Shown here in pieces: positions 1-40,035 of a stretch of 64,000 bases of DNA (its first letter is position 1; each line of letters opens with the position of its first letter). This DNA is from Spartobacteria bacterium (GTDB lineage: Bacteria > Verrucomicrobiota > Verrucomicrobiia > Chthoniobacterales > UBA10450): NCBI GenBank assembly GCA_003167555.1, contig PMSN01000014.1, forward strand, positions 248,001 to 312,000. The letters are read 5' to 3'. The translations under genes were made by a program, and so were the position numbers. A model generated the notes under the pieces. That model searched no databases. It was not told the origin of the DNA and worked only from the letters and a program-made list of their open reading frames with translations.

Positions 1-44
1 GAGCGGGGAATACCGTGGAAACCGTTTATGGAGGAGTGGAAGAA

Positions 45-518
45 ATGAAGGAAGTCGAGTTGACGGTTATCAGTTTATGGCAGCCGTGGGCGTCGTGGGT
101 CGCTTGGGGCTGGAAGTCCGTCGAGACGCGGACGCATTGCCGTTTCTCCTCTTTGGTCGGACAGCGGATTGGTATTCACGCAGCTAAGAAGTGGGACCAC
201 GATGCGCTTAAAATTGCTGAGAGATATTTAGGCACGGGCCAGGTCAAGCAAACCGTCTCGCTCGGTTACGAGCCGCCGCAGGGTATCCTCTGCACGGTTT
301 TCGTTTTGGCGCATAAGCATTGCGAAATGTCCGACGGTGAAAATGCTTTAATCGAATGCGAGACTTCGCGCTATGGCTTATTTCTTGAGGCGATTCATCG
401 AATCCAGCCGCCGCTGCGCTGCAATGGGCGGCAAGGAATATGGAGGGAAATCTGTCCGGCTCGCGTTCATGGCTCTTACGTGGGTGGAATTTCGTATTCT
501 CAACCAGCCCTCTTATGA
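45..518 (+). CDS. ASCH-domain protein (PUA-like fold)
   Basis: A 157-residue protein. The N-terminus has the hallmark ASCH pattern SLWQPWA followed by a short helix and VETR (residues 10-29), then GQRIGIHA, a central GILCTVF strand and a closing block ending in GRQGIW. ASCH domains are RNA- or nucleotide-binding PUA-like modules, and phages often carry them. The precise substrate is unknown. I chose the ATG at 45 because a GGAG lies about ten bases upstream; an in-frame start at 15 has no such support. The stop codon overlaps the ATG of the ParB-like gene (ATGA at 515-518), so the two are probably translationally coupled. They are the only phage genes here on the plus strand. Confidence 0.75.
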   Translation: MKEVELTVISLWQPWASWVAWGWKSVETRTHCRFSSLVGQRIGIHAAKKWDHDALKIAERYLGTGQVKQTVSLGYEPPQGILCTVFVLAHKHCEMSDGENALIECETSRYGLFLEAIHRIQPPLRCNGRQGIWREICPARVHGSYVGGISYSQPALL

Positions 519-1480
519 CCACCGCCCCAAAGCAGAAGTGGCGCGAGGTAGCGATCTCGCTGATCGATGTCCCAAAAGAATACGTCCGCAAACAGCCGAA
601 TGAAGACGCGGATAAATCGCTCTCGGCCTCGGTAAAACTCTCGGGGATCATCCAGCCGCTCGCCGTTGTCCCGAACGGGAAGGGCGGATTCGATCTCGTT
701 GATGGAACCCGCCGTATGGTCGCCGCGGAAGAGAACGGGCTGGGAACAGTTCCGATCATCGTGAATCACCCGCCAAAGGGAACGACCGGCAAAGCCCTGA
801 AAGCCTACCGGGACCGGCTCCGCCAATTCCTCAATACGAAGCGGCAAGACTTAACCCCCTCGCAATGGGTAGAGGTAGTGGCCGAAGCGCAAAGGATGTT
901 CAAGCTCAACAACAAAGAGATGGCCGCACTCCTCCAGGTTGACCCGGCGACGATCACGAATCGGAACCGAATCAAGAATTACGCAGCACCGATCGTGGCT
1001 GCGATTGACCGGGGCGACATTACGTTGCACCACGCGCAAGCCCTGGATGGTTTGAAGCCGGGCGCGCAAGTGAAGGTATTTGAGAAGATGCGGAATGATT
1101 TTGTTAGGGTAAGCGGGCGCGTGTTAAAGGGGCTCGTGCGGGAACAGTTCAATCCGAAATATTACCCGAGAATGTGGGCGGATCCGGAGAAAAGCACAAA
1201 ACGGATTCGGGGGAGCAAGGCAAAACGAGAGCGCCTTATCGAAGCCCGCGCGCCATCCTTGAAAACACGGGCTGAACTCGACCGGCTATTAAACGACGTG
1301 GAGATGTGGCAGACGGAGTTTGAGGAGAACCGAAAAGAGATCGAGCGCGCGAATCTATTGATCCGGTTGGTTGGACCGATTCACCGGGCCGTTTCCAATG
1401 ATGAGACGTTGCTCGATTATGTGGCGAAGAAGTGGCCGATGCACCTCCCGGCGTTGGAGAGGTTCAGTGAGTTAGTTTAG
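515..1480 (+). CDS. ParB/Spo0J-like nuclease-fold protein
   Basis: A 321-residue protein. Residues 10-85 fit a ParB N-terminal domain: a VPKEYVRK strand, the LSASVKLSGIIQPL helix, then GGFDLVDGTRRMVAAEENG, which corresponds to the GxRR nucleotide (CTP) box of ParB proteins. A helix-turn-helix-like segment follows (MAALLQVDPATITNRNRI), and the C-terminal third is charged and helical. Such proteins in phages act as partition factors, transcription regulators or DNA-modification partners. No ParA is nearby, so a segregation role is unproven. The start at 515 overlaps the ASCH stop. The 3' end overlaps the convergent methyltransferase by four bases, leaving no room for a terminator between them. 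Confidence 0.78.
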   Translation: MTTAPKQKWREVAISLIDVPKEYVRKQPNEDADKSLSASVKLSGIIQPLAVVPNGKGGFDLVDGTRRMVAAEENGLGTVPIIVNHPPKGTTGKALKAYRDRLRQFLNTKRQDLTPSQWVEVVAEAQRMFKLNNKEMAALLQVDPATITNRNRIKNYAAPIVAAIDRGDITLHHAQALDGLKPGAQVKVFEKMRNDFVRVSGRVLKGLVREQFNPKYYPRMWADPEKSTKRIRGSKAKRERLIEARAPSLKTRAELDRLLNDVEMWQTEFEENRKEIERANLLIRLVGPIHRAVSNDETLLDYVAKKWPMHLPALERFSELV

Positions 1481-2565
1481 GCGAGCGCCAGTCCCGGAGT
1501 CACGTCGCACCGCGTTTCGATCAGTTTCACGTATTCGGAGTTGAGTTCGATCAGCACGGCCTTGCGGCCCAATTCCAGCGCCACCATGCCGGTTGTGCCG
1601 CTGCCGCCGAAGGGGTCTAGGATTGTGTCGCCCGCCTTGCTACCGGCGAGGATGCAGGGCTTTATTAGGTCGGGTGGGAATGTCGCGAAGTGAGCGTCTG
1701 GAAATGAATATGTCGGAACCGTCCAAACGCTTCGCTTGTTGCGCGTCAGGGATTCAGTTTCCGTGTACTCAACTTCCTGCGCGCGACCGTCGCGTTGAAT
1801 AGTCCCGTGAGCCCCTTCGCTTGTGTCCCATCCTGCGGGCTTGCGTTGTTTCTTTCGCGCGTTCTCGATGATGCGGGTTTTCACGCTCGAAGGATTCTGC
1901 ACGCCGGCGGTTGCATAATCTTTCAAGCCCAGCCCATCGTAACCCTCCTCGATTTGCTGCATCATTGAATCGCTTACCGGCTCCGCTATCGCCTCTGCAT
2001 CGTAATAATACCGCTGGCTCTTGGTGAGCAGGAAGAGGTATTCGTGCGACTTAGTTGGCCTATCTGTGACGCTCTCCGGCATGGGATTCGGCTTGTGCCA
2101 GATGATGTCGCTTCGGAGATACCAGCCGTCAGCGCGGAGGGCGAATGCGACCATCCACGGGATACCAACCAAGTCCTTCGATTTACACATACCGTTTGCT
2201 CCACCCCGGCAATTAGCGCCAAGATTTTCACCACGCCTTGTTGCCAGAGATCCGCGATTCGTTCCCTGCTTATCGCCATCTCGGATTGCGCCCGAATTTC
2301 CCTTGTTGCCTTGATTGTAGGTGTCCCCCAGATTCAACCAAAGCGTCCCATCATCCTTGAGGACCCGACGCACTTCGCGGAACACCTGAACCATGTTGCA
2401 AACGTATTCTTCCGGCGTCTTTTCGAGGCCGAGTTGTCCGGCGCATCCGTAATCACGCAGACCCCAATAGGGTGGACTGGTCACGCAGCACTGAACGGAG
2501 CGATCTGGCAGCTTGGTCAACTGCGTTATCGCATCGCCATTCAAGACTGTGAGGAGCGGCTCCAT
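1477..2565 (-). CDS. DNA methyltransferase (N4-cytosine/N6-adenine, beta class)
   Basis: A 362-residue S-adenosylmethionine-dependent DNA methylase of the N6_N4 family. The catalytic motif TSPPYWGLRDYG is at residues 29-40 and comes before the SAM-binding motif DPFGGSGTTG near residue 318, an order seen in beta-class enzymes. The middle (residues 90-280) is the variable target-recognition region. There is no cognate restriction enzyme beside it, so it is probably an orphan phage methylase that protects phage DNA or changes its regulation. The ATG at 2565 is directly preceded by GAATTGAGAT rather than by a Shine-Dalgarno box; this sequence recurs at other phage gene junctions. Confidence 0.9.
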   Translation of the reverse strand: MEPLLTVLNGDAITQLTKLPDRSVQCCVTSPPYWGLRDYGCAGQLGLEKTPEEYVCNMVQVFREVRRVLKDDGTLWLNLGDTYNQGNKGNSGAIRDGDKQGTNRGSLATRRGENLGANCRGGANGMCKSKDLVGIPWMVAFALRADGWYLRSDIIWHKPNPMPESVTDRPTKSHEYLFLLTKSQRYYYDAEAIAEPVSDSMMQQIEEGYDGLGLKDYATAGVQNPSSVKTRIIENARKKQRKPAGWDTSEGAHGTIQRDGRAQEVEYTETESLTRNKRSVWTVPTYSFPDAHFATFPPDLIKPCILAGSKAGDTILDPFGGSGTTGMVALELGRKAVLIELNSEYVKLIETRCDVTPGLALA

Positions 2566-13429: not shown

Positions 13430-14125
13430 TTAGAGCCCCTCCACGCGCACGAGGTTGACCGCGTTGAGCACCGGATCGTAGTCGGTGGTGCGGATGACTC
13501 CCACGTCGATATTAGTGATGGCCGTGCCAGCCTCAAGCCGACATACATCCATCACGCCGCCGATGACAAAAACGAAAAGCGAGTTGAGCGCCGCGCCGAT
13601 CGTCGCCGTGCCATCCGCTTTCGTGGCGCCCCCGCCGGTGTAACCCGTCACAAGTGGCATCGGGTAAATCCTCGGGGTAGTCGAGCGGAGCAAAGTCGCC
13701 GGGATACTGCCTTGCGTGCCTGCCTCGTTCCACGTCACTTGCACGAGACCGGGGCCGGGAATCTCCACCGTCACGCCGCCCTGTGCGATAACGCCGGGGA
13801 GTAGGTTCAAAGCCGTCTCAATCGCCGCGGCATCGTCAATCGCGACCGCGGCTGTTACGTCCGAGCCCACCTGGAAGAACGCCGTCCCTTTATCTGGCAC
13901 TTGATCTGGCAACCCCATTGCCGCACGGACTGAGGCCGTCGAGATGTCCACTTCCGTGAACTCGACCGCGCCCGCATCGGACGGATCAGCCACGCGGATC
14001 GTGAGCGGTTCGCCGTCGTTACGTATCAATCGATCGAGCCGCGCCGTGGACGCCACGAGCCGCCCGCCGATCTGGGCGAGCAGTCCCCGCTTGCTCGGGT
14101 CTTTGCGGTTGATGATGAGTTCCAT
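13430..14125 (-). CDS. Virion structural protein (tail region)
   Basis: A 231-residue protein. The middle (residues 80-150) has the DVTAAVAIDDAAAIETALN helix and GLVQVTWNEAG strand order of the beta-sandwich repeat shared with neighbouring virion proteins; the N-terminus starts ELIINRKDPSKRG. The gene sits alone behind its own promoter: a TTGTCA box, 16 bases, then CATAAT lies just upstream, giving only about six bases of leader. Three palindromic operator-like sites cover this promoter. Confidence 0.55.
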   Translation of the reverse strand: MELIINRKDPSKRGLLAQIGGRLVASTARLDRLIRNDGEPLTIRVADPSDAGAVEFTEVDISTASVRAAMGLPDQVPDKGTAFFQVGSDVTAAVAIDDAAAIETALNLLPGVIAQGGVTVEIPGPGLVQVTWNEAGTQGSIPATLLRSTTPRIYPMPLVTGYTGGGATKADGTATIGAALNSLFVFVIGGVMDVCRLEAGTAITNIDVGVIRTTDYDPVLNAVNLVRVEGL

Positions 14126-14131
14126 CGGTCT

Positions 14132-14186
14132 GTCGCAATTATGCGAGAAATTTCAAAAATGACAAGACTCGTCTCAATTCTGCGAA
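14132..14186. promoter_or_regulatory. Three-site palindromic operator array A
   Basis: Three 16-bp sites of the form TTCKCA-N4-TGMGAA: GTCGCAATTATGCGAG at 14132-14147, a weaker ATTTCAAAAATGACAA at 14150-14165, and GTCTCAATTCTGCGAA at 14171-14186. The start-to-start steps are 18 and 21 bp, the same as in array B near 19.2 kb. The first two overlap the -10 and -35 boxes of the predicted promoter. Confidence 0.6.
14138..14165 (-). promoter_or_regulatory. Predicted sigma70-type promoter for the 14,125 gene
   Basis: On the minus strand TTGTCA (14165-14160) and CATAAT (14143-14138) are 16 bases apart. Transcription would begin about seven bases further, near 14131, and leave a leader of only about six bases before the ATG at 14125, so the message would be almost leaderless. 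The -10 lies inside one palindromic site and the -35 inside a second, as expected for a repressible promoter. Confidence 0.5.
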
Positions 14187-14188
14187 AA

Positions 14189-14629
14189 CTATGGCTTGGG
14201 CGCGTTCACATTCACTATGCAAAGGGTCGCGTAATTCGCACCGATGCCGACGAGGACGATGGTGAGATAAGCCCCGGATGGCAGTCCAGCAATGTCAGCC
14301 AATTTTCCCACCTGACCGGCTGCCCCCCACGACAGGACCGCGATCTCATGCACCGCGAGCGTGAACCCCGGCTTGAATTTCGTGTCGGAGCGGACAAAGG
14401 AAAAATCCTGCCCCGGAGCAGCGTCGTTCAATGCCCATGCAATCGATTTGTATGCTGGCGCCGCTCCATTGGCTATCGCCGGCTGCCAAGTGCCGTCCGG
14501 GAGTTGGTAAATAAGTGGAGCGGTCCTGGCAATCGCAACTGGCGATCCAGAGGAACTGACGATGCCCGTTTCGAGCGTTGAGTTATTCGAGCGAAGGACG
14601 TTTGCAGCGGTAATGGAGTAATCGGCCAT
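14189..14629 (-). CDS. Phage decoration/fibre-associated small beta protein
   Basis: A 146-residue beta-rich protein. MADYSITAANV followed by an early SGSPVA turn and a repeated hydrophobic strand pattern (YKSIAWALNDAAPG, GFTLAVHEIAVLSWG) resembles small capsid-decoration or tail-fibre-base proteins with the same opening. The assignment is from pattern memory only. It ends just before operator array A, so it is probably the last gene of the operon starting at 19,143. Confidence 0.5.
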   Translation of the reverse strand: MADYSITAANVLRSNNSTLETGIVSSSGSPVAIARTAPLIYQLPDGTWQPAIANGAAPAYKSIAWALNDAAPGQDFSFVRSDTKFKPGFTLAVHEIAVLSWGAAGQVGKLADIAGLPSGAYLTIVLVGIGANYATLCIVNVNAPKP

Positions 14630-14636
14630 AGGATTT

Positions 14637-15233
14637 CTAAGGAACGTTTGTTCCTGGTGGTTGGTAGTCTGGAGGCGGTGTGCTTCCGCTTCCGCCTGTG
14701 TCTGCGGAGGCGGATGTCGTTGCCTTGTTGTTTATCAGTGCGTCAGCACAAAAAAGCTTCCATTGCGCCTGTCGCGCGGCAGTGTCGGCGTCGGACCAAG
14801 CAAGATAGGCAGGGAAAGCGTAATAAATTTCGTATGCGTTAACTGCGGTTATCACATCTGGACTACGGAGTCTTGCCAGCATGTCATCCGTTGGGTGATC
14901 CAGATAGGTCTGTAACTGCGCTAGTTCGTAGGAATTGAACAAGCTTGAATCGGGAGGCAACAATGAGATTTGCGATGAGTGAGTCCAGGTCGTCGGAGTC
15001 GTTCCGGTCGCGACGAATATCACTCCGGTCGTATTCGAAGCAGCTCCGACGTTCGTGAAGCTGTCCCCCGAGACAAATAGGAGAATCGAATAGCGCTGTC
15101 CAACAACTAATGGCCCGGCAGTTTGCACTGGGGCAGGCGGTGAGACATGCCGAAACCACGCCGGCGCTATGGATATTTCCTGTGCGGCGTTGTATTGACG
15201 CTCGTAAAGTGTCGCGGTGAGGTTCGTTGCCAT
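14637..15233 (-). CDS. Phage tail-region protein
   Basis: A 198-residue protein. Residues 38-90 contain a motif very common in phage structural proteins: VGQRYSILLFVSGDSFTNVG followed by a GVIFVATGTTPTTW block. After it comes a helical region rich in Trp and Tyr and a Pro/Gly/Ser tail. It is a probable minor tail or fibre-attachment protein; the precise role is unknown. Confidence 0.55.
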   Translation of the reverse strand: MATNLTATLYERQYNAAQEISIAPAWFRHVSPPAPVQTAGPLVVGQRYSILLFVSGDSFTNVGAASNTTGVIFVATGTTPTTWTHSSQISLLPPDSSLFNSYELAQLQTYLDHPTDDMLARLRSPDVITAVNAYEIYYAFPAYLAWSDADTAARQAQWKLFCADALINNKATTSASADTGGSGSTPPPDYQPPGTNVP

Positions 15234-15234
15234 A

Positions 15235-15450
15235 TCACAAGATCGTTAAGTCGATTCCCTTTCGTGCTAGCGCAGCGACCAACCCGGAGCAATCGGCTAC
15301 CCATCCGCCGCCGTTCACGTAAACGTTTATCAAATGCGGATGAGATGAAGTGGCTTGGTAAAGCGTTTCCACATCGTCAATGAGATTATCGGTCCGTCGC
15401 CATTCCGTCCTTATGTCGTCTGGAGGAGCGCCCAGCTTTTCTGCTTTCAT
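15235..15450 (-). CDS. Small phage protein in the tail operon
   Basis: A 71-residue protein, not recognised. The ATG at 15450 overlaps the TAA of the large virion gene upstream (TAATG), and the stop is two bases before the next start, so it is clearly placed within the operon. It has a single Cys and no membrane segment. Confidence 0.55.
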   Translation of the reverse strand: MKAEKLGAPPDDIRTEWRRTDNLIDDVETLYQATSSHPHLINVYVNGGGWVADCSGLVAALARKGIDLTIL

Positions 15451-16895
15451 TATATTTTGATCTCCCAATGGGTTTTCATCCAGATGTTGCCCATCCAACG
15501 AGTGAGTAAATCATCTCGGGCTATGGTGGTGGTGCCATAGGCGAGATTCACGTAGCCATCAAAAAGCGTGAAACCTCCTCCGAAGACCACAGCACGCGGC
15601 AAGCGAGACAATGAAATCAATTGAGGAGCAGTGGTGCGGATAAAGGTGCGTGTTCTTGTCGCGGTGCGATTTAAGGGATAGCTCGCAATTGCAGCCTGCC
15701 CCCCGATGGTGCCCGTGATCTGCCAGACGTAGTTGATCTCTTCGTAGTCAACTAACGTGGGCGGAACCTGTGCCCAGATCAGTTCGAAATTCACCAAGTC
15801 TGCCCCGCCAACGTCTTGATCCGGTCCTATTCCCACGATACCCGCGGAGCTGTCTCTCGGACACGCTGCGTCTAGTTCCCAAATTTGACGAACGGTGCGC
15901 AAAGCACGCCAGGGCTGCCGATAAACTATTACGTCTAACGCCTCTTCAAACGGGTGTTCGGTCTTCAACACAGCTATAGGCCATCCGTAGGGTGCAGTGT
16001 GATCCCCGTCATAAATGATTCCGGCGGAACTTGAAGGCGGTGGTATCGGGGGAGTTCCTGCAGTCCCGACAGATCCCGGTCCACTGCCGTCTGTAGAAGT
16101 AAGTTGGAATTGCGCGGCGTAACTGCCGTTAATTAGAACCTCCAAATATGCAGGAGCGTTCGCGGTAAGGAATAGGTCTGTGAAACTTCCGTTAGTCAGC
16201 GGCACCGAGACATTCCATCCGAAAGCATAGTGGATATTCGATGCGTTGACGACGGTCAGTGGGATTGGTCCCTTGTTCGGGCTTCCTTGTTGGAATTTAA
16301 TGGAGAAATCGGTTAGATCGCTTCCGGTAACAAACAGATAGACCGAAAAATCACCCGTTACCGGAATGGGAGTACTGGGATTGTAGTTATAGAAAGGGAG
16401 CGCTCGAATCGCGGCTTGAACGTCCGCTATCGAACAATTCCAAGGCAAGGTTACCGTTCCCTTCGGACCGACTTTTTGACTGTTTCCACCTGGCCCGTCA
16501 AAGGTAAGCGTGAAGTATCCCGTGAACGGGACCGACGGGAACTGAATACGTTGGATTTCTTCAATGCCTCCCCCGCTTTGAGTGCGTGTTACGGTAGGAG
16601 CAGTAGCAGCCGGAGCTATTTCGGAAGATGAATCGCCAGTAGCGTAGATGGTTGAGTCACCAACCGCGCGCAATCGAACTGTAGTAGTTGAACCGGCAAA
16701 CCTTTCTCCCAGAAAAGGGAAAGCCCCGCTGCCGTCGTATAAATAAAATACTTGAAGCGCTAAAGTGTCGCCCGCATTCAAGGCGGGAATAGCCGGAGTG
16801 CCGCCGAGCGTGCCGTAGAGCAGTCGATTATGAGTGCTATCCAGCGGATCTCCGCCTTGATACCTGACGTAAAGATTGGCGTTTACCGTTGCCAT
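15450..16895 (-). CDS. Large virion protein with beta-sandwich modules
   Basis: A 481-residue protein. A module at about residues 115-165 (IQRIQFPSVPFTGYFTLTFD, then a WNCSIADVQAAIRALPFYN helix) is shared with the 306-residue protein downstream. Two further beta-rich regions follow, with many aromatic and Pro residues and no membrane segment. It directly follows the tape-measure gene, where distal-tail or baseplate proteins are usually encoded, so a tail-tip or baseplate role is likely but unproven. Confidence 0.6.
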   Translation of the reverse strand: MATVNANLYVRYQGGDPLDSTHNRLLYGTLGGTPAIPALNAGDTLALQVFYLYDGSGAFPFLGERFAGSTTTVRLRAVGDSTIYATGDSSSEIAPAATAPTVTRTQSGGGIEEIQRIQFPSVPFTGYFTLTFDGPGGNSQKVGPKGTVTLPWNCSIADVQAAIRALPFYNYNPSTPIPVTGDFSVYLFVTGSDLTDFSIKFQQGSPNKGPIPLTVVNASNIHYAFGWNVSVPLTNGSFTDLFLTANAPAYLEVLINGSYAAQFQLTSTDGSGPGSVGTAGTPPIPPPSSSAGIIYDGDHTAPYGWPIAVLKTEHPFEEALDVIVYRQPWRALRTVRQIWELDAACPRDSSAGIVGIGPDQDVGGADLVNFELIWAQVPPTLVDYEEINYVWQITGTIGGQAAIASYPLNRTATRTRTFIRTTAPQLISLSRLPRAVVFGGGFTLFDGYVNLAYGTTTIARDDLLTRWMGNIWMKTHWEIKI

Positions 16896-18152
16896 TTATC
16901 TTCCTTTGAAATTGATGTTCCGAATCGCTTCCAACTGGTCTTTGTAGATTTGAGCGCGCTCGATCGCGTTCAGATAATCCTTCTCCGTGTCCCTCAATGG
17001 GACGATCTGGTTTTTGAGCGCGTCGGCATTCGCCTGATGCCGGAAAGCCTCTGGGTAGTGCTCCGCGAGCATTTCCTTTTTCGCGAGTTCTTCTTCTTTC
17101 AACGCGCGTTTGGCGAGCTTGCCTGCGCCGGCCTGCGAATCATCGCCCGACGCCGTGTCCCTGCCTTTCTTCGCAAGTTCTGCCAATGTGAATTGCAGCC
17201 CTTCTAACTGCTTACCGGCTACCCCAGACAACCTACCAGACTCTCCGGCTAGCCCGGACATGGCCTCATCCCCCGGCTTCCCAACTCTCCCTGTTAGTCG
17301 AATTCTCGCATCCTCGTCAGCTCGTCGTTTTTCCCCCAGGATCCTTTGCCGTTCGGCCTCATCCTCGTTAATTTTCTTTTGCAACGCATCTGGATCATCC
17401 GGCCCCATCTGTTTGCTCCAGCTTTTGTCGCGAGTTTCATCGATCGGGATGGAACCCATTATTCTCATGTCCTGATCTCTGGGATCAAGACTTAGGCTTA
17501 GCCATTTGTCTCTCCTAGTTTTCTGTAGCGGCCCAGAATTTGCAACCGAACCATCCGGGTTTATCAATGGCGTTGCTGCTTCGTCAACGGTTCGGCCCAC
17601 ACTTCCTGTCAACTTCTCCACTAACCCGGCGAAAGCGCCGAAAGTGTTGTTGAGCAGGCCTTCCACGTGTTCTTGGAATGTCTTGCTCGCACGACTCTCC
17701 GCAATGATCTTCCCGGTGGCGGCTGTTTGCTCTTTGGTTGGCGGTGGGGCGCCCGGTTCCGGCGGTTTACCGGCCTTCGATAGCTCTTCGTTTAATTTTA
17801 CGGCATCCGAATGCGCTTTCGATATTTTCGAGATGAGTGCCCCGACGACTTCCAAACCGATCAAGGCCGGCAGGCTGACATTGGTTGCCATTGCCAAAGC
17901 CTGCATCGCGGCCCCGGCGTCAGTGAGCGCATTTCCGCTGGCAATAGCGTTCGCGGTCAATCCACGCATCGCCGCGGCAACGCGGTGATCGCTTCGCAAA
18001 AGGGCGTTGTGGCTTGTCGTGACGCCATCGATGTCGTGCATCAGCTTGCCCGTGCTTTTATTGACACTGGCCGCAAGTCCTTCCATGTCGGAGCGCACCT
18101 GGGACGAATCCGAGGTGATCTTCATTTCGATAACGCCGCTTTCGCCAGCCAT
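16896..18152 (-). CDS. Tape-measure-like protein (short)
   Basis: A 418-residue, almost wholly helical protein. Residues 10-70 have the SDSSQVRSDMEGLAASVNKS opening of tail tape-measure proteins, and residues 88-112 are hydrophobic (ATNVSLPALIGLEVVGALIS). A Pro-rich linker and long charged helices follow (INEDEAERQRILGEKRRADE). It lies directly after the putative tail chaperone, the normal place. It is short for a tape measure, implying a short tail if that is its role. Confidence 0.65.
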   Translation of the reverse strand: MAGESGVIEMKITSDSSQVRSDMEGLAASVNKSTGKLMHDIDGVTTSHNALLRSDHRVAAAMRGLTANAIASGNALTDAGAAMQALAMATNVSLPALIGLEVVGALISKISKAHSDAVKLNEELSKAGKPPEPGAPPPTKEQTAATGKIIAESRASKTFQEHVEGLLNNTFGAFAGLVEKLTGSVGRTVDEAATPLINPDGSVANSGPLQKTRRDKWLSLSLDPRDQDMRIMGSIPIDETRDKSWSKQMGPDDPDALQKKINEDEAERQRILGEKRRADEDARIRLTGRVGKPGDEAMSGLAGESGRLSGVAGKQLEGLQFTLAELAKKGRDTASGDDSQAGAGKLAKRALKEEELAKKEMLAEHYPEAFRHQANADALKNQIVPLRDTEKDYLNAIERAQIYKDQLEAIRNINFKGR

Positions 18153-18153
18153 A

Positions 18154-18756
18154 TCAGTCTTTCCTCCCGTAGTAATCGATCATGCGAACCTGGAGAGGAT
18201 CGAATTGAGGTATGTCTGGATTGATCTCAATCCATTTGATGTATTGATAGAGCGCCGCCATTCGCTCGCGAATGATCTGTTCTTTCGGCCACCCGTAGGC
18301 ACCGGCGACCTTGTTGATGATCGACGCCGCCGTGCATGTGCCGACGCGAATCCCGCTGGTTGGCGCGGGCGGAATGTCCATTAGCGATTTCACCCACAGG
18401 AATCGGTAAATCGCCCGGTAGAAAATACGGAACTGAGGAGTTGCGTATTCCTCGAAAAGGATTCGCAAAAACTCGCGCCGAAGTTCGCGATTATTGCGAT
18501 TATAGTGCGGGCTCAAAATCCAAAGGAACAGCCCCACGTCTTCCGGTTGCGTTCCCATGCCCGCGGTGAGGAACGGAGATTCGACGCGTTCGAGTTCCTG
18601 AATGTGCCAGAGCGTCAACGGCAGCACGTTCCATCCGTTGATGCGTTGCAGTTCCGGTTCGCGTAACGCTTCCTCGCGCCAACGATCTTCCACGCGCTTG
18701 ACCCGCGCGATGTTTTTAGCGAGGCCGGGGATTTGGCTGAGTTCCGGTGAACTCAT
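18154..18756 (-). CDS. Tail assembly chaperone-like protein
   Basis: A 200-residue protein with a helical N-terminus, a LFLWILSPHYNRNNRELRRE segment, and a C-terminus with YGWPKEQIIRERMAALYQYI, which recalls proteins encoded between tail tube and tape measure in siphophages. In many phages a programmed frameshift makes two forms of this chaperone; no overlapping second frame is evident here. The ATG at 18756 is directly preceded by GGGGGATTGAGAC, so GGGGG may serve as ribosome-binding site. Confidence 0.6.
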   Translation of the reverse strand: MSSPELSQIPGLAKNIARVKRVEDRWREEALREPELQRINGWNVLPLTLWHIQELERVESPFLTAGMGTQPEDVGLFLWILSPHYNRNNRELRREFLRILFEEYATPQFRIFYRAIYRFLWVKSLMDIPPAPTSGIRVGTCTAASIINKVAGAYGWPKEQIIRERMAALYQYIKWIEINPDIPQFDPLQVRMIDYYGRKD

Positions 18757-18771
18757 GTCTCAATCCCCCCG

Positions 18772-19143
18772 TTACGGATTCAATACCTCGACGATATCGA
18801 CCGGAATCTTCGTGATGCCGCTTTGGGTGAACGCCTGATGCTCGGAAATCGCCATCACCTTCCGTGGCGTCCCACCGCCGTTCGGAACGAAGGTGCATGT
18901 CTCGCCGCGGGTGACAGAAACGGTGCTGCTTGAAAGAATTTGACAGACGCAACTCCCGCGACCCTTGATCGGGATGTATGCCGCCTTATTCGGATTGCCA
19001 ACTTCATCCTCGGAATCGAGTTCCCGCATCCCGAAAGTCATCTGAAACTCTTCGGCGATGAGCTGACCGGCGGTTGACCAAGTGACTTTTTGCGCACCGA
19101 ACTTCAGCGTTTGCGCCGATGGAGCGTCAACGAATGTTGCCAT
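18772..19143 (-). CDS. Tail-tube-like protein
   Basis: A 123-residue beta-rich protein (MATFVDAPSAQTLKFGAQKV) of the size of small tail-tube subunits and in the right place ahead of the chaperone and tape measure. The GETCTFVPNGGG and IPVDIVEVLNP strands fit a tube fold, but no family signature is decisive. It is the first gene behind operator array B and so probably starts an operon that runs to 14,189. Confidence 0.5.
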   Translation of the reverse strand: MATFVDAPSAQTLKFGAQKVTWSTAGQLIAEEFQMTFGMRELDSEDEVGNPNKAAYIPIKGRGSCVCQILSSSTVSVTRGETCTFVPNGGGTPRKVMAISEHQAFTQSGITKIPVDIVEVLNP

Positions 19144-19158
19144 GAATCACTTTTTACC

Positions 19159-19213
19159 GTCTCAATCCTGCGAATGCAAGCAGAATTGAGAATATTTTTC
19201 GCACGGATGCGAA
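19159..19213. promoter_or_regulatory. Three-site palindromic operator array B
   Basis: Sites at 19159-19174 (GTCTCAATCCTGCGAA), 19177-19192 (CAAGCAGAATTGAGAA, only the right half good) and 19198-19213 (TTCGCACGGATGCGAA, perfect palindrome). Steps of 18 and 21 bp repeat array A exactly. A weak promoter, TTCTCA-N16-CAGGAT on the minus strand, falls at the same relative place as in array A. The array fills the 79-bp gap ahead of the tail-tube-like gene. Confidence 0.6.
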
Positions 19214-22526: not shown

Positions 22527-24485
22527 TTAACCGCGGGCTGGGAATCCGGTGAACTCCAAAAATGCGACCGGGCGATAGCAGGCGAGCGCGAGCCGATGTT
22601 CGGCGCGGAGCGCGATCAAGTTGCGCTTGAAATCGTCTTCGTTCGCATTTGTCATCTCGATCCGCATACCTTCGCGAAGGAAATACTGCGCACCGAGTTT
22701 GCCCGCTCCCGCGATCGGCTGGCCGTAGGTGATCGATGTGCTGACCACGACCGGCTTACCCCAGAACGTGTGCAGTTCCATGAAAGCACCACCAGTGTAG
22801 GGGATATAATAAGGGCCGCCGGCCAGGAACCGGCCGTTCGTGTCCTTCAAGAGTTGCGCGGTTTCCCAGTCAAACGGGTGGAACCCGAAAAAGTCCGGCT
22901 CGAATTGCGCGTTGACCTGAATGTCCGTTAATCCTTGACGCAGTGAAGCGGCAATCGTCGCGTCACTCGTGAGAGTGATCGCACGGGTCTGGACGTTCGC
23001 GAACGTCATAATGCCCTTGAGGTTGTTGTTCAGGCCGTCTCCGTAGAGGAGTTGAAACTCGGTCTCGAGGTCCACCATGTAGGGCAACCGCTCGTCGATG
23101 TAGCTTCGAGCCGCGGGGAAATCGGCCATGAATTCATCGGGGACTTTCGTCACCGCGGCGATCTTGCGGACATTCGCGGTGACGGTCGTTAGGTCAGGAT
23201 CCCAATTTGGCTTGAGACCGCGTTCCCCTGTCGCCTTACCGCGCGGGTAGGTTCCGGCCGCAAAAGTTACGCCGTCGATCGTTCCGAAGCTGTTTTCCTG
23301 AGCATAAATGATTGCCGCCGCGCCGGTCGTGCCGGGCGAGATAACATCCATGATAGTCAGTTTTTGGACACCCAGAACAACGATGCCTGGCAGAACTTGA
23401 ATGTTGACGGCGGATAGATCGCCCGAAGTGAATCCGGCGCGTTGCGCCAGAGCCGCTTTGCCGCGGATTCCAAGCATTGAACAGTCCGGCAATTCCAAAC
23501 CGACTGTTTTACCGCGCTCCAGTCGCCCGCCGCACGACTTGTAATCTTTCGAGCTCACGAATCGCTCGCCGACGCTGCCCTGGACGCGCTCACCTATCAC
23601 GCGAATGTTTTCAGCCGGAGGGTCAATTTTCGTCTCGGTCGTCAAATAAGGGAGCAGCTCGCCGTGGAACGAAATGAAATCCGCTTCGCCGTCCTTGTGC
23701 TTTTGCGCGATCTCAACGGCCTTCGCTTTCCAAGCTTCGTTTTTGATTGCGCCGACAAAATCATCGATTTTTTTGCAGCGCGTCTTAAATTCGGTGATCG
23801 CTTCCGAGCGTTCCTTTTTCGCGTCAACGGCGGGTTGAGGAAGAATGGCGGGAGTTGGAGCAGCGGGAATTGTTTCCATATTGTTTTCTCGTATTTGAGA
23901 ATCTTTCTCACTTTTGCGAATATCGTCAAGACTTTTTATTTCAATCTCGACAAGTTTTTCGTCAGGCAAATGTTTACGCTGGCGACCGACTCCTACCGAC
24001 GCATCGGCGGGAATCGTGACGAGGCTGCCTTCAAAAACTTTGAAGTGGAATTTGTAAATTGGAAGTTCATCCTTCGCACCGACACAAATCCCGTCGCCCA
24101 CGAGTTCGTATCCGACGCTGGTATCAATCAGCACGCCGGTTCTCACTTCGCCCAGCTTCTCCTGCGCGAACGGTGACTCTGAAAACTTCGCTTCCACTGT
24201 TATCTTGTGCCCGTCGTTCACGAAAGAAACGCTCCGGCCTAACAAGGAGTCGCGATCGTGATTGTAGAGAATTGGGAGACCGGATTTCAGGCGCTCTTCG
24301 TCAACCCCGCCGGGACCGTGGTCGAGCACTTCCCAGTAATCTTCGTCGTCCATCCAATCATATCTCAAGTAAGGCTCATCACTCGAAATGCTCATCTTGA
24401 CCGTCTTAGATTCTCCGTCCATCGCGGCCATTGTGGAAGCGGTTCGGGTGAGCCTCTGCGGGACTTTGATGCTTTTTACTGGCAT
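22527..24485 (-). CDS. Fused prohead protease and HK97-type major capsid protein
   Basis: A 652-residue protein. Residues 1-180 are a prohead-protease domain: GLPILYNHDRDSLLGRSV with the catalytic-type His, then a VRTGVLIDTSVGYEL block with the candidate Ser and an FEGSLVTIPAD ending. Residues 200-300 are a helical scaffold-like segment, and about 330-652 the HK97-fold capsid protein (SYIDERLPYMVDLETEFQLL, ending FLEFTGFPARG). The protease would cut away the delta-type segment during head maturation. An internal Met at 206 (ATG at 23879) opens at the junction just behind two operator-like palindromes, so separate capsid synthesis is possible. An AAGG seven bases before the first ATG is the ribosome-binding site. 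Confidence 0.85.
   Translation of the reverse strand: MPVKSIKVPQRLTRTASTMAAMDGESKTVKMSISSDEPYLRYDWMDDEDYWEVLDHGPGGVDEERLKSGLPILYNHDRDSLLGRSVSFVNDGHKITVEAKFSESPFAQEKLGEVRTGVLIDTSVGYELVGDGICVGAKDELPIYKFHFKVFEGSLVTIPADASVGVGRQRKHLPDEKLVEIEIKSLDDIRKSEKDSQIRENNMETIPAAPTPAILPQPAVDAKKERSEAITEFKTRCKKIDDFVGAIKNEAWKAKAVEIAQKHKDGEADFISFHGELLPYLTTETKIDPPAENIRVIGERVQGSVGERFVSSKDYKSCGGRLERGKTVGLELPDCSMLGIRGKAALAQRAGFTSGDLSAVNIQVLPGIVVLGVQKLTIMDVISPGTTGAAAIIYAQENSFGTIDGVTFAAGTYPRGKATGERGLKPNWDPDLTTVTANVRKIAAVTKVPDEFMADFPAARSYIDERLPYMVDLETEFQLLYGDGLNNNLKGIMTFANVQTRAITLTSDATIAASLRQGLTDIQVNAQFEPDFFGFHPFDWETAQLLKDTNGRFLAGGPYYIPYTGGAFMELHTFWGKPVVVSTSITYGQPIAGAGKLGAQYFLREGMRIEMTNANEDDFKRNLIALRAEHRLALACYRPVAFLEFTGFPARG
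23886..23920. promoter_or_regulatory. Pair of palindromic sites inside the protease-capsid gene
   Basis: TTCTCGTATTTGAGAA (23886-23901) and TTCTCACTTTTGCGAA (23905-23920) both fit TTCKCA-N4-TGMGAA with at most one deviation per half-site. They are inside coding sequence, just upstream of the internal ATG at 23879, and encode the polar linker between protease and capsid parts. Confidence 0.5.
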
Positions 24486-24500
24486 GGGATTACCTTCGTT

Positions 24501-24516
24501 TTCTCATTTCTGAGAA
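24501..24516. promoter_or_regulatory. Palindromic site upstream of protease-capsid gene
   Basis: TTCTCATTTCTGAGAA has perfect 6-bp arms and lies 16 bases upstream of the ATG at 24485. A further perfect half-site, TTCTCA, is at 24531-24536. The 114-bp gap up to the portal stop holds no other recognised element. Confidence 0.5.
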
Positions 24517-24599: not shown

Positions 24600-26348
24600 T
24601 TACTTTGGAGTGCCGTCCGGGTTTGTCCCGTCAACCGAATCGTCAACGCCTGCATCGGGCTTGATTGGCTTCACTCCTTCGGTGCTCGTTTCGGTAGTGA
24701 GTCCGAGTTCGTTCAGCAACATTTCTTCCTCCGCCAACTCAAGGGCATTGGCTTCGAAGTCGAATCCCTCTTCCGCACACTCTTTGTTTCGACTGCTCAA
24801 TTTGTTCGCGATCCGAAGGGCGGCGGCGTTCGCGTCTTTGACCTCATCGATTCCCTTCCATCGGCGCCCCTGGAAAACTTTCGCGTTGAACTTGCTGTAT
24901 TTCTTTGGCGGCAACGGAACCACCTGCATGATAAGCGCCATTTCCAGACCGTTTTCAAAGATGCTGTTCTCGGCTGTTTCGATATGCCAGCGTTGCAGCA
25001 TTTTAATATTTTCTTGGCTGTCCAGCCGGGTTGTGCGCCCGCTCGAAAACGACATGTTCCCGTCGTTGAAAATCTGATAGTAATTCGCGCCCGGCAATCC
25101 AGCGCTGGCCGCCTGTCCCATCCCTTGCCGGAATTTTTCGAAGTTTGCGCTCGGATATTTCGGATCATTGCCCTTGAACTTCACTCCGTAAGGCAACCCA
25201 TAAAGACCGCCCGGCGTAATCTTGATAGTGCCGGCGAGTTGCCGGATTGAATCCGAGGTTGGAAGTAGTTCCTGCGGAACACCGCCCTCTGGAACTATAT
25301 CTGATTCGAGCCACCCCGTTTTGCACGCTTCGGCGCGGGCCGCCACGACGGATGCAATCTCGTATTGGTCAAGCTGTCGAATTTTCCCGAGAATGCTGAT
25401 GCCCCACGGCGCTGGGCGCGTCGATTCGGTATCCATGAATCGCGCGTAGTGAATAATTTCCTCGGCCATCACGCGATCTCGCGCGGAATATGAATTGTTC
25501 ATCCCGCCGCCGTAGCGCGCCGCGGTCTGCCAGTCCCGCGGAATTCTGCGAATAAAATGATATGCGACCGGCTGCCCGATGCCCCACGGCGTAAAGGGAT
25601 ATTCAATCCCCATGCGGACGACGTTCCCGTTGTCGAGCGTGGTGTTATAGAAATGGTCGCACCATTCATCGTTCACGAGCTGGATTGCGTATCCCATCTT
25701 GTTGACACGAGTGTCTTTGATATGCCGAATGAAATGTCCGCCGTCTCTGGCTGAACTCCAAAGCATGATCTGCCTCAACATGTTCATCGTCCGTCGGCCG
25801 CGGATGTCGATAAATTCTGCTCGCTGCAATTCTTCCCACCATGCCTCAATCCGCTGGCGCGCGTAGAGATCCGGTGCGCCAACTTCGATGAGCGCGGCGC
25901 CGCGAATCACGTCGCTCGATTTTGCGCGATCAAGGCCGTCCGCAAGTTTGAAGGCGTTGTATTGCGCGATGCTTTTCCCGCTTTGCTTTTCGGCCCATAC
26001 TCGCAGGCGGTTTATCCGTTTCTCATGCTCAATCAACGCCCATTTTTCTTTCGCGGCGTAAACAACGCGGTCTTCGGTTTCTTTCACTCGCGAGCGCAAC
26101 ATAATGCCGTGCTCGCCGAAAGTGTCAGAACTGATTTGCTCGGCGTATTTCGCCATGTAGGGATTCGTTAGCCACGCATCCCGCATCGCGGCCCGCATGG
26201 AAAACACGGTCTGGAAAACTTCGGCATCGATTTGAAGACCGCTGGAAATCCAGCCGTCCTGGTTCACTGCCGAAATGATTTCCGAAAGACTGCGCTCCGC
26301 TAACTTCGGTTTCTTCCGATTTCGCCGTTTCTTTTTTAGTGCGGCCAT
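24600..26348 (-). CDS. Phage portal protein, lambda family
   Basis: A 582-residue protein that would form the dodecameric portal at one head vertex. It has the expected features of lambda-type portals: a basic N-terminus, MRDAWLTNPYMAKYAEQISS near residue 55, an RDGGHFIRHI block, ARFMDTESTRPAPWGISI and an acidic C-terminal tail. Its length is normal for the family. The gene overlaps the joining-protein gene upstream by 13 bases, and a possible internal start would not alter the fold. Confidence 0.92.
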   Translation of the reverse strand: MAALKKKRRNRKKPKLAERSLSEIISAVNQDGWISSGLQIDAEVFQTVFSMRAAMRDAWLTNPYMAKYAEQISSDTFGEHGIMLRSRVKETEDRVVYAAKEKWALIEHEKRINRLRVWAEKQSGKSIAQYNAFKLADGLDRAKSSDVIRGAALIEVGAPDLYARQRIEAWWEELQRAEFIDIRGRRTMNMLRQIMLWSSARDGGHFIRHIKDTRVNKMGYAIQLVNDEWCDHFYNTTLDNGNVVRMGIEYPFTPWGIGQPVAYHFIRRIPRDWQTAARYGGGMNNSYSARDRVMAEEIIHYARFMDTESTRPAPWGISILGKIRQLDQYEIASVVAARAEACKTGWLESDIVPEGGVPQELLPTSDSIRQLAGTIKITPGGLYGLPYGVKFKGNDPKYPSANFEKFRQGMGQAASAGLPGANYYQIFNDGNMSFSSGRTTRLDSQENIKMLQRWHIETAENSIFENGLEMALIMQVVPLPPKKYSKFNAKVFQGRRWKGIDEVKDANAAALRIANKLSSRNKECAEEGFDFEANALELAEEEMLLNELGLTTETSTEGVKPIKPDAGVDDSVDGTNPDGTPK

Positions 26349-26950
26349 GATGCTGGATAAAGTCCAAGGGTTGCCCTCGGTCGATCAAACGTGACTCCGA
26401 TTTCGCCGCCTGTTCGGATACCGCGTAGGGCGTCAATTTTTTTCTGCTCCGAGATCACGCGCGACTGCCAGTAGACGAGTTCCTTCCGATATTCAGAAAC
26501 GTTGTCGCGCGAAAATGATTGCCCGTTGAAGCTAACGGTTTTTTCGGTGGCGGCGGCGAGCGCCTGCAGTCCCCCAAGCAAAAGTGCGACCATCGCTTGC
26601 GCTTCGGATGGTTTTGCTGTTGCCGTAATTCCCGGCAGCACATTAAGCAATCCATCTAGTCCAACAGCTTTTTCTGTCGGCGTTGCAATCGACGTGAAAA
26701 CTTCTCCCCAAGTGTAGCGTCCGGTCGCAAGTGCGGCCGTCTGGACCGCGGTCAGCGTCACGGTGAAGCCGGTCCCGGGCGAACTATCCGGCGTTGCTGT
26801 CACCAACAAGGGAGCGTCAATGCCGTTGTTGAGCGCGAACTGCATCGTCCATCCCGTTGCCGGGTAACAACTATTCGAGACCGTGAAATGATACGTCGCG
26901 CCGGATTCAATAACGGACGGGGCGCAGGTTTTTGTAGCTACTACGGACAT
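26336..26950 (-). CDS. Packaging-region protein (gpW-position) with beta domain
   Basis: A 204-residue protein in the place where lambda encodes gpW, between terminase and portal. Residues 1-110 form an Ig-like beta domain (ATYHFTVSNSCYPATGWTMQ, TGFTVTLTAVQTAAL). Residues 140-190 are helical with EYRKELVYWQSRVISEQKKI, similar to small head-joining proteins. It may be a fusion of a beta domain with a joining helix pair. One perfect palindromic site lies 13 bases upstream of its start. Confidence 0.5.
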   Translation of the reverse strand: MSVVATKTCAPSVIESGATYHFTVSNSCYPATGWTMQFALNNGIDAPLLVTATPDSSPGTGFTVTLTAVQTAALATGRYTWGEVFTSIATPTEKAVGLDGLLNVLPGITATAKPSEAQAMVALLLGGLQALAAATEKTVSFNGQSFSRDNVSEYRKELVYWQSRVISEQKKIDALRGIRTGGEIGVTFDRPRATLGLYPASWPH

Positions 26951-26962
26951 TTACGCGCGACA

Positions 26963-26978
26963 TTCTCATTTATGAGAA
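26963..26978. promoter_or_regulatory. Perfect palindromic site in the terminase-portal gap
   Basis: TTCTCATTTATGAGAA, a perfect 6+6 palindrome with a 4-bp centre, fills part of the 46-bp gap upstream of the 26950 start. On the minus strand it contains CATAAA, a possible -10 box at the same place in the site as in array A. Confidence 0.5.
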
Positions 26979-31366: not shown

Positions 31367-31645
31367 TCAACGTCCTTTCTTCGCTCTCGCCCGCTTTTTT
31401 GGGAACGCGATCGTGCTGTATACCCAAGATTTTCGGACACGGATGCGAGCTACCAAGCCGCAGGCTCGCAGACATTCGAGACGATTGTTGACCGCGTTTA
31501 CGGTTATTTGCGCGTCTAGTCTTTTCAGCACTTCTCGGGCTGTCGCGCCGCGACATATCGCTTGCAGCGTCGCAAATAATTCATCGTTGACTGGCACTGC
31601 ACCTGATCCGTGGCAATACTCACATTCAATGTCTGGCCGTTTCAT
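31367..31645 (-). CDS. Winged-helix-like regulator with CxxC start
   Basis: A 92-residue protein. CEYCHGSG (residues 8-15) recalls a DnaJ-type zinc half-site; then come a helix (LFATLQAICRGATAREVLKR) and INAVNNRLECLRACGLVARI with RVRKSWVYS, the usual order of a winged helix with a wing. It could be a small phage transcription factor, and the nearest early operators lie just upstream at 31668-31701. Confidence 0.5.
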   Translation of the reverse strand: MKRPDIECEYCHGSGAVPVNDELFATLQAICRGATAREVLKRLDAQITVNAVNNRLECLRACGLVARIRVRKSWVYSTIAFPKKRARAKKGR

Positions 31646-31972: not shown

Positions 31973-32653
31973 TCAAAATGGAAGGGCTGGTTCAAGCGGT
32001 CGGACACGGAACGATTCCCAGTTGCATTCGATTATCCGTCCGTGCTCGCGCATCCTCGAAATAATGCTTTCGTCCGTGTCATCCTCAAACTCGCGCGGCG
32101 TCTGGTTCGTAATTAAAAGTGTGTCGTTCCTCGCCGCATATCGCCGATCAAGAATGTCGATCATCACCCGATCCTTTGACTTCTGCTCTTCGCATTCGTG
32201 GATCTCGTCAATCACGAGCAACGGGAATCTCGCGTAATCTTCCCGGCGTTGAATCAGCTTCTCGGTGTTGCGGCTCCCGTAATCGGAATAGAGCGGTTTG
32301 AAGAGCGCGACCACATCCGACATTTTGCGGTAGGGCGGCTGACGCGCGGCCGGCGTGAGCGACGCATCACATGCCCGCTCGATTATCAGTTGCGCCGCAA
32401 TCGTGGTCTTGCCTACTCCGCGCGGACCTACCAGCACCACGATTGCACCCGTGCCCGTCAAAATGGATTTGCATTGTTCGAATACGAAAAACTGCGGAGT
32501 TCCTCCCCATTCCAGCGGACGGCAAAATCGTTTTGGAAGCTTCGTCGCCGTTACCCGCGGTCTGAGGTCATGCTTCCAATTCCACTTGTCTGATTCTTCG
32601 TCGCTCACGCGCGGGATGCTCGCCATAAGCTTTTCGATCTGTTCTGCAATCAT
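31973..32653 (-). CDS. DnaC/IstB-like helicase loader ATPase
   Basis: A 226-residue AAA+ ATPase. Walker A is VGPRGVGKTT near residue 72, Walker B is LLVIDEIHE near residue 142, and an ILDRRYAARNDTLLITNQTP sensor-1 segment and SRMREHGRIIEC follow. Proteins of this kind load the replicative helicase at the phage origin. The ATG at 32653 overlaps the stop of the replisome-organiser gene (ATGA), the usual partner order. Confidence 0.85.
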   Translation of the reverse strand: MIAEQIEKLMASIPRVSDEESDKWNWKHDLRPRVTATKLPKRFCRPLEWGGTPQFFVFEQCKSILTGTGAIVVLVGPRGVGKTTIAAQLIIERACDASLTPAARQPPYRKMSDVVALFKPLYSDYGSRNTEKLIQRREDYARFPLLVIDEIHECEEQKSKDRVMIDILDRRYAARNDTLLITNQTPREFEDDTDESIISRMREHGRIIECNWESFRVRPLEPALPF

Positions 32654-33516
32654 ATCTTTTTCACTCCAGGTGGGCGCCACACGAGGCTGTCGTCATGCGG
32701 TGGCTCGGGATATTCGCCGCTCCGTTTCTTGGCGCGGACACCGGCCACTCCGTTGCTGCTCGGTTTCCATGTTGAAGGGTCGTCGTTGAAACGTTCCTGA
32801 TTGAACCACGTCGCCGGGTGCGGAACGAAGTCGAGATTGCCGGCGCGGGCCACAGCGAAGGCTTTCGTCTTTTCGAGCAGCAATGGCGCTCCGAATTTGG
32901 AGATGGCTTTGCTTATGGCCTTCAGCGCGTCTGGACGACCTACCTTCTTTGGGTATTCCGCATAAATCGATTCGGAATCCTTCGGGTCGGAGAACAGTGG
33001 CACTGTTTCTTCTTTCCTCTGCTTCTGCTTCTGCTTCTGCTTCTGCTTCTGCTTCTGCTTCTGCTTCTGCTTCTGCTTCTGCTTCTGCTTCTGCATTGGT
33101 TCACTGTGGTCAACTGTGTTCACCAACTGTTCACCACGACCGTAAGAAGGGTCTTTTTTGCGCTTCTCGGCCATCCACTCCCGTCGATATTCGCGCCTGG
33201 CCTCCTCGTCGCGCAAAAGCCGGAACTTCTCATAATTCACGATCATCCAGCCCCAATCTCGATGATCGTCTAACCGTTTTATGCGGGCTCCAGCAAAGTC
33301 CTTTGTGCGACTACGGGGATCCGGCCCCTCAAGTTCGATAATCGTCTCGCGAATAATGCGCAGAGGACGATTCGTGCGCCGCGCAATGGCCTCGTGTGTC
33401 ATGTCAACAACGCCGTTGATGTCGCAGAGCGTAAGTAGGTCGGTAAAAGTGAACCGGACATCTGGCTTTTCGACAATACTACTGTCGAAGATTTGAGTGA
33501 AAACCTTAGCGAACAT
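32650..33516 (-). CDS. Replication initiator/organiser-like protein with (QK)12 tract
   Basis: A 288-residue protein. Residues 1-110 have a winged-helix DNA-binding pattern (FTFTDLLTLCDINGVVDMTH, then EAIARRTNRPLRIIRETI). A low-complexity linker follows, holding twelve perfect CAGAAG repeats (33022-33093) that encode Gln-Lys twelve times. The C-terminal part (YPKKVGRPDALKAISKAIS, HPATWFNQERFNDD) is common in phage replication proteins. Together with the DnaC-like gene that follows it would open and load the phage origin. The start at 33516 (MFAKVFTQI) is set by homology pattern; the frame is open to 33594. Confidence 0.7.
   Translation of the reverse strand: MFAKVFTQIFDSSIVEKPDVRFTFTDLLTLCDINGVVDMTHEAIARRTNRPLRIIRETIIELEGPDPRSRTKDFAGARIKRLDDHRDWGWMIVNYEKFRLLRDEEARREYRREWMAEKRKKDPSYGRGEQLVNTVDHSEPMQKQKQKQKQKQKQKQKQKQKQKQKQRKEETVPLFSDPKDSESIYAEYPKKVGRPDALKAISKAISKFGAPLLLEKTKAFAVARAGNLDFVPHPATWFNQERFNDDPSTWKPSSNGVAGVRAKKRSGEYPEPPHDDSLVWRPPGVKKI
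33022..33093. repeat. Hexanucleotide microsatellite (CTTCTG)12
   Basis: Twelve perfect tandem copies of CTTCTG on the plus strand, preceded by one CTG. On the coding strand this gives (CAGAAG)12. Such repeats change length by slippage; here changes stay in frame and alter only the linker length. Confidence 0.95.
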
Positions 33517-33524
33517 CTGGCCTC

Positions 33525-33625
33525 CCTGTGCCGGCCCCGAACAGTCTGGCGGACGTGCCCGACCCGACGAAGGGAAGAGCTTCGGAACCGGCACAGGAAA
33601 GCCGGAAGTGTGTTTGCCAGACTGT
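33525..33625. promoter_or_regulatory. Interleaved inverted repeats in the leader of the replication gene
   Basis: Two 10-bp perfect inverted repeats are interwoven. Repeat one pairs 33525-33534 with 33588-33597, and imperfect pairing extends it to 17 bp (33525-33541 with 33581-33597). Repeat two pairs 33541-33550 with 33616-33625. Their order is 1-left, 2-left, 1-right, 2-right, so both hairpins cannot form as simple stem-loops together, but a pseudoknot or alternative folds can. The element lies between the RusA stop and the ATG at 33516. Confidence 0.6.
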
Positions 33626-33638
33626 CATATTTGCTACT

Positions 33639-33654
33639 CTCTCAGTATTGCGAA
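33639..33654. promoter_or_regulatory. Palindromic site upstream of the replication gene
   Basis: CTCTCAGTATTGCGAA fits TTCKCA-N4-TGMGAA with one mismatch. A weaker copy (CTGTCATATTTGCTAC) is at 33622-33637, and a GATTGAGAC-type box (GTCTCAATT) at 33682-33690 inside the end of the RusA gene. All lie upstream of the 33516 start. Confidence 0.45.
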
Positions 33655-39961: not shown

Positions 39962-40035
39962 TGCCTCGTAGTGTAACGGTAGCACCAGAGATTCTGGATC
40001 TCTTTGTCAAGGTTCGAATCCTTGCGAGGCAGCCA
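39962..40035 (+). tRNA. tRNA-Gln (CUG)
   Basis: A 7-bp acceptor stem (TGCCTCG / CGAGGCA), an anticodon stem AGAGA/TCTCT with loop TTCTGGA giving anticodon CTG, a T-arm with GGTTCGAATCC, and an encoded CCA at 40033-40035. It reads CAG. It is the border of the chromosome, but the prophage is on its 5' side, whereas phages usually insert at the 3' end. Confidence 0.93.

Follow-up and report, generated by a model that had tools for sequence, protein, structure and literature searches.

Phased 16-bp operators ahead of the replication and structural genes of a Spartobacteria prophage, with a ParB-like pair as a possible regulator

The window is the whole 64,000-nucleotide stretch of DNA that was analyzed (C3:248001-312000), taken from a genome of 4.2 Mb. 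An integrated prophage of ~44.3 kb, spanning about window positions -4370 to 39982, is bounded by 21-bp copies of the 5' end of tRNA-Gln. The tRNA-Gln gene forms its right end (39962-40035), and at its left end the 21-bp copy at C3:243631 is followed by the integrase gene. The structural genes are on the minus strand and encode a gpA-type terminase, a portal protein, a protease-fused head protein, and a head-tail joining protein. The genes for a DnaC-like loader, a replication initiator, RusA, and Lar are all on the minus strand as well. Intergenic DNA makes up 7.5% of the prophage. The replication initiator contains a long Lys-Gln repeat (KQKQKQ...), which corresponds to a simple DNA repeat within the gene at 32940-33113.

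The palindrome TTCKCA-N4-TGMGAA has nine good copies in the 44-kb prophage. Every coordinate listed for it in the initial annotation was found to hold the described sequence. The features are given below in window positions; records with G numbers are introduced later.

1..48, plus strand: 3' end of ParB1, second candidate regulator (whole gene C3:247182-248048, window -818..48)
440..1480, plus strand: ParB2, with ParB_N and HTH_ParB, candidate regulator; orthologs in G213, G592, and G175
13430..14125, minus strand: array A gene, 231 aa, no family match; G213 and G592 orthologs likewise preceded by an operator
14132..14147: operator D of array A; its center is the -10 (CATAAT, minus strand)
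14150..14165: array A operator M, weak; the -35 hexamer (TTGTCA) is its left half as read on the minus strand
14171..14186: array A operator U; ends 5 nt upstream of the -35
18772..19143, minus strand: array B gene, 123 aa; G213 and G592 orthologs likewise preceded by an operator
19159..19174: start-proximal operator of array B
19177..19192: middle operator of array B, weak, with one half-site perfect
19198..19213: start-distal operator of array B, perfect
22527..24485, minus strand: fused head-maturation protease and major head protein gene (phrog_10, phrog_617)
23886..23901: operator 6 nt upstream of the internal head-gene start; same place in G213, G215, and G595
23905..23920: operator 19 bp upstream of the 23886 site, in the spacer of TTGACG-17-AAAGAT
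24501..24516: operator 15 nt upstream of where the protease/head gene starts
26963..26978: operator lying 12 nt ahead of 26336-26950, the head-tail joining gene; conserved in G213, G592, and G595
33639..33654: operator covering the -10 (AATACT) upstream of 32650-33594, the replication-initiation gene; conserved in G592 (41191)

At least six prophage genes carry an operator ahead of them, often as evenly spaced promoter clusters. Seven of the nine strong sites fall within the intergenic 7.5% of the prophage (P=4e-7). The other two, 23886 and 23905, lie inside an open reading frame, where an internal in-frame ATG (23879) follows them at 6 and 25 nt. A matrix that includes the window sites counted nine sites in the prophage, versus a shuffle mean of 0.75 (maximum 3). 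The initial annotation had named two refuting outcomes, matches in coding DNA as often as in intergenic gaps and loss of the 18/21-bp steps in related prophages, and neither occurred. With a matrix built from the relatives only, the nine window sites were the top nine matches (12.4 to 22.6 bits), and the next match scored 11.0. Allowing two mismatches in the pattern gave 20 window matches versus 13.7 expected, barely above chance, whereas the strict pattern is far above it.

The motif also occurs in matching places in two viral records recruited through the head protein, G213 (IMGVR_UViG_3300018429_000064) and G215 (IMGVR_UViG_3300020022_000006). G592 (IMGVR_UViG_3300044810_000026) was found independently by running a two-adjacent-site pattern over all viral contigs. 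The two-site pattern also found G595/G607, which is one phage (99.96% identical), and the structural genes of G592 and G595/G607 are homologous to those of the window. Structural proteins are mostly 30-63% identical across the phages, yet operators are found at syntenic genes. They precede the orthologs of the genes at 13430, 18772, 26336, and 32650, and the head gene or its internal start. In G215, the protease and head protein are separate open reading frames with an operator near the boundary, which fits an internal start in the fused gene of the window. At a single threshold, sites versus shuffles were 9 versus 0.75 in the window, 8 versus 0.63 in G213, 8 versus 0.68 in G592, 3 versus 0.35 in G215, and 11 versus 0.30 in G595; the window, G213, and G215 counts are partly circular since the threshold matrix contains sites of all three, and G592 and G595 were found by pattern. 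The regulon is almost certainly real.

The dispersed site set was not seen in seven more distant head-protein relatives (G442, G515, G224, G226, G361, G488, and G262), and viral contig L007, whose head protein is 64% identical to that of G213, has no motif copies. Scans of the viral contigs with TerL and with single proteins found nothing. Arrays of this palindrome, mostly one per contig, are present in about 30 more viral contigs, and several of them immediately precede terminase genes. The pattern used for the scan is itself selective for arrays; a rough estimate is that some of these matches are due to chance, while the terminase-linked ones look real.

Four related viral contigs (L144, L095, L141, and L153; G+C 0.43) have seven tandem copies of a palindrome nearly the same as this one, spaced at 15-20 bp and located inside or next to a coding region. 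Another viral contig, which lacks the ParB pair, has six copies at ~18-bp steps (L117 2873-2979). A separate observation concerns TerL: two related phages, L007 and L057, have its gene split at almost identical points (window TerL residue about 391-397). The interruption is a DNA methyltransferase gene in L007 (about 870-2590), a relative of window 1477-2565, and an HNH-like open reading frame in L057 (about 820-1360). Rfam gave no intron at the interruption.

Similar single arrays in other viral contigs, often ahead of terminase genes, would be expected if the sites were read by a host regulator that is widespread in the hosts of many phages. Host-genome-wide counts were made by pattern search. 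The strict pattern has five exact matches in 4.2 Mb, four of them in the prophage, leaving one exact site outside it, and the best other pair is near an integrase gene. The genome-wide count shows no sign of a host regulon, and we rejected this reading as very unlikely. The extra-prophage pair just mentioned (C14:88797 and 88843; L003 8797 and 8843) has its members 46 bp apart, lies ~400 bp from the integrase gene, and is perhaps the remnant of a second element.

Spacing was analyzed around 39 strong sites over the window prophage, G213, G215, G592, and G595. There were 25 neighbor pairs at 17-23 bp (~1.1 expected) and 11 pairs at 37-43 bp (~1.1 expected), and no neighboring matrix matches at 5-16 bp. 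The pairs in the window, G213, and G215 are unselected; G592 and G595 were recruited via pattern-chosen pairs, so a few pairs are selected. Promoter-like pairs, defined as TTG at -35 and 16-18 bp to a -10-like hexamer, were near 41% of sites versus 4% of random positions, a baseline of random positions rather than matched AT-rich intergenic DNA. Neighboring sites at conserved spacing over promoters, here 17-23 and 37-43 bp with 21/18 at orthologs, are the arrangement expected of a cooperative phage operator array.

Array A illustrates this geometry. On the coding strand it reads U (TTCGCAGAATTGAGAC), 5 nt, M (TTGTCATTTTTGAAAT), 2 nt, D (CTCGCATAATTGCGAC), and its G592 ortholog reads U (TTCTCAAGTTTGAGAA), 5 nt, M (TTGTCAAAATTGAGAC), 2 nt, D (GCGACATAATTGCGAA). 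Both are U-21-M-18-D, with identical steps and different letters, and G592 20062 is the counterpart of window 14171 at the orthologous promoter. The position of M (+21/-18) is thus kept in G592; in G213 it is 19 bp. The initial annotation held that the spacing is under selection. The orthologous promoter of G592 keeps the steps exactly, and the five phages together show a pile-up at 17-23 bp rather than strict 18/21 steps.

Array A had also been described as covering a -35/-10 pair, and the predicted promoter indeed has TTGTCA in M and CATAAT in D. TTGTCA differs by a single base from TTCTCA and likewise from TTGACA, and M is probably weak because its left half must double as the -35 hexamer. 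Arrays A and B had been called identical. Their starts do share the offsets 0/18/39 (14132, 14150, 14171 and 19159, 19177, 19198), but the middle sites, 14150 and 19177, are weak, each with 3 of 12 specified bases mismatched. Taken singly they are at chance level, at 5.7 and 7.2 bits, with ~20-40 such matches expected in 44 kb. They are credible only because of the spacing statistics over five phages, on which we rejected the reading of them as chance matches.

The predicted promoter layout varies. The operator is 5-7 nt before the predicted -35 at several promoters and is in the spacer or over the -10 elsewhere; the replication promoter has one site over the -10, and the internal head-gene start has one in the spacer. 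The half-sites are equal and the sites palindromic, and they lie 6-54 nt before start codons, where they could form RNA hairpins for translational control. However, the half-sites vary independently (TTCTCA with TGCGAA), which breaks the stem pair, and the sites align with -35/-10 elements and recur at 17-23 bp. We consider hairpins extremely improbable.

A second short motif was noticed near start codons. There are 18 coding-strand copies of the octamer ATTGARAY versus 3 on the other strand (expected 2.7), including minus-strand sites at window 2573, 7187, 7233, 18764, 21212, 30253, 31675, and 31700. It is often immediately before the start codon, sometimes behind a CCCG-loop-CGGG hairpin, and it overlaps the right half of operator M at some promoters. 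The strand bias is also present in G592 (17/3) and G213 (16/7). The octamer may be a translation-start or RNA element.

Repression by occlusion is probably the main form of control. It is favored because, in array A and its G592 ortholog, the left half of M is the -35 and the -10 lies in the promoter-proximal operator. Late promoters that have U only make activation possible there too. Taken further, the sites could belong to a late-gene activator made after induction, in the role of Ogr, Mu C, or Q. Its site would be centered near -49 at late promoters and would cover the -10 of the replication promoter, so that late genes are switched on and replication is switched off. At several late promoters a single strong site does end 5-7 nt ahead of a -35 that departs from consensus, and the G592 replication promoter is near-consensus with a site over its -10. 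In addition, ParB1 and ParB2 end a rightward operon that opens with a ribbon-helix-helix (RHH) gene, as would be expected of an early lytic product. Against this, an activator would get in the way of polymerase at arrays A and B and the internal head-gene promoter, since M, D, and spacer-type sites there overlap the -35 or -10. An activator of this kind is a somewhat unlikely explanation.

The initial annotation concluded that the regulator is a cooperative phage protein not encoded in the window. The first part is supported by site positions, spacing, and conservation, which suggest cooperativity. The second part is probably wrong, since ParB2 is a candidate at 440-1480 and ParB1 straddles the window start. 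The two genes are adjacent in the window prophage, G213, and G592. Both proteins have PHROG ParB matches, and the Pfam and PHROG evidence is clear for ParB2 and weak for ParB1. ParB2 matches PF02195 (ParB N-terminal, CTPase domain; E 3.9e-12) and PF17762 (HTH_ParB), both over the cut-off, while the ParB N-terminal domain match of ParB1 is below it (0.0014). Foldseek's best matches for both predicted models, whose overall confidence is modest (pLDDT 62 and 65), are ParB/Spo0J/Noc structures. The DNA-binding part of the ParB2 model matches the Noc DNA-binding domain (TMt 0.84), and the HTH of ParB1 is seen by fold only (full-chain TMt about 0.44). PDB sequence matches also support the ParB identity.

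The pair is common to all three near-complete phages with dispersed sites, at 38/37% identity in G213 and 68/66% in G592. The association rests on these three, as G215, G595, and L007 are partial records. The non-structural proteins common to the three are ParB1, ParB2, RusA, a small membrane protein, and an HNH-like protein. Since the rest of this list holds none, the ParB pair is the only shared recognizable DNA-binding regulator. The three phages are related, so gene sharing does not prove function. A winged-helix-like small protein (31367-31645) was set aside as a candidate; it has no family match and is absent from the proteins shared with G213 or G592.

Another candidate is a lysogeny repressor, either the small RHH protein of a divergent pair at window about -1757..-1250 or an unrecognized small HTH protein. 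It would act like Arc/Mnt or a stoperator-binding repressor. The divergent RHH genes, between the integrase gene and ParB1, look like an immunity switch, and RHH-like small proteins are in the same region of G213 and G592. These proteins are unlike across the three phages (no BLAST match at 1e-4), whereas the operators are alike. With phmmer there was no RHH match between the window prophage and G213, the DNA-contacting strands differ by eye, the RHH proteins have no Pfam match, and no operator lies between the divergent genes. Judged by sequence, the RHH proteins appear to vary from phage to phage as immunity proteins do, and the operators do not. We consider this repressor unlikely to be the binder.

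A partition role for the ParB pair is unlikely because a motif search found no ParA-type Walker motif in the open reading frames of the window prophage, G213, or G592. A matrix scan found no operator near the ParB genes, so no autoregulation is visible. Searches among cultured phages gave ParB1 no relative and ParB2 none of full length, and a search of plasmids with ParB2 gave no full-length relative. The pair does occur in G175 on an 8.8-kb contig without the motif (L049 5908-7722, G175:C235). There its neighbors are ordinary chromosomal genes, it follows a possible sigma-factor-like fragment, and the contig belongs to a different genus of the family. The ParB pair was not detected in the ~30 further array-bearing viral contigs. 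Either another regulator reads a similar site in those contigs, or ParB is not the regulator in the prophage. It is mainly for this reason that we put the ParB pair as binder at just short of an even chance.

The best explanation, to which as a whole we give slightly less than even confidence, is that one phage-encoded regulator, most likely ParB1/ParB2, controls the replication and structural operons of a temperate phage family. The 16-bp palindrome would be occupied by its dimers, two or three of them along each array promoter at intervals of 17-23 bp, with U just upstream of the -35, M over the -35, and D over the -10. Bound dimers would exclude RNA polymerase, and cooperative contacts would let the weak M sites fill. 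With no ParA involved, ParB1 and ParB2 would resemble KorB on RK2 or SopB on N15 in how they act. More tentatively still, an integrated temperate phage family could have as its master regulator a ParB-type pair free of ParA and of partition, presumably nucleotide-dependent clamps, which would load at phased 16-bp operators over replication and late promoters.

Lambda oL and oR have two or three near-identical operators over a promoter, bound cooperatively. The layout here may work like a lambda-type operator array multiplied over many promoters; the prophage differs in its candidate protein family and in having far more target promoters. The candidate protein and dispersed sites appear to resemble KorB of RK2 most. 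KorB has 16-bp operators 4-10 bp upstream of its target promoters, represses replication genes, and works with a partner protein acting at the -10 (PMC11790492). Shared with RK2 are a ParB-family protein (a candidate here), dispersed 16-bp palindromes on one element, and replication-gene control (predicted here). In contrast to the ParB plus KorA of RK2, the prophage is a temperate phage with two candidate ParB-like proteins, a different palindrome, and arrays at 17-23 bp.

SopB of N15 has reportedly been linked to late gene expression by Ravin et al. in 2008. PMC11652158 cites Ravin et al. 2008 on N15 SopB and dispersed centromeres. N15 is likewise a temperate phage with a ParB-type protein (a candidate in the prophage), but it is a plasmid prophage with SopA, whereas the prophage here is integrated and has no detected ParA. 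VirB of Shigella is a ParB relative that regulates transcription via parS-like palindromes (virS), as an antisilencer whose sites can be over 1 kb upstream (PMC10770331). The operators here sit on promoters, unlike the distant VirB sites. Repressors of L5-like phages use many sites spread over a temperate phage genome (PMC9283540, PMC6550527), and the stoperators of these cluster A mycobacteriophages are asymmetric and monomer-bound (PMC9283540). The prophage shares the dispersal of many sites over a temperate phage genome, but its sites are palindromes, not asymmetric, in phased promoter arrays. L5 stoperators likewise are close to gene starts.

ParB-fold proteins are common in prophages, with roles beyond segregation (recent survey, PMC12704722). 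The ParB pair is not known to have been linked to such a control role before. With these results, an uncultivated phage family gains a defined regulon, with conserved operators, target genes, and a short list of regulators. If the ParB proteins are the binders, a segregation family, to which KorB, VirB, and SopB are exceptions, would also run a prophage gene program, and the arrays would allow a direct test of ParB-type promoter regulation at close range.
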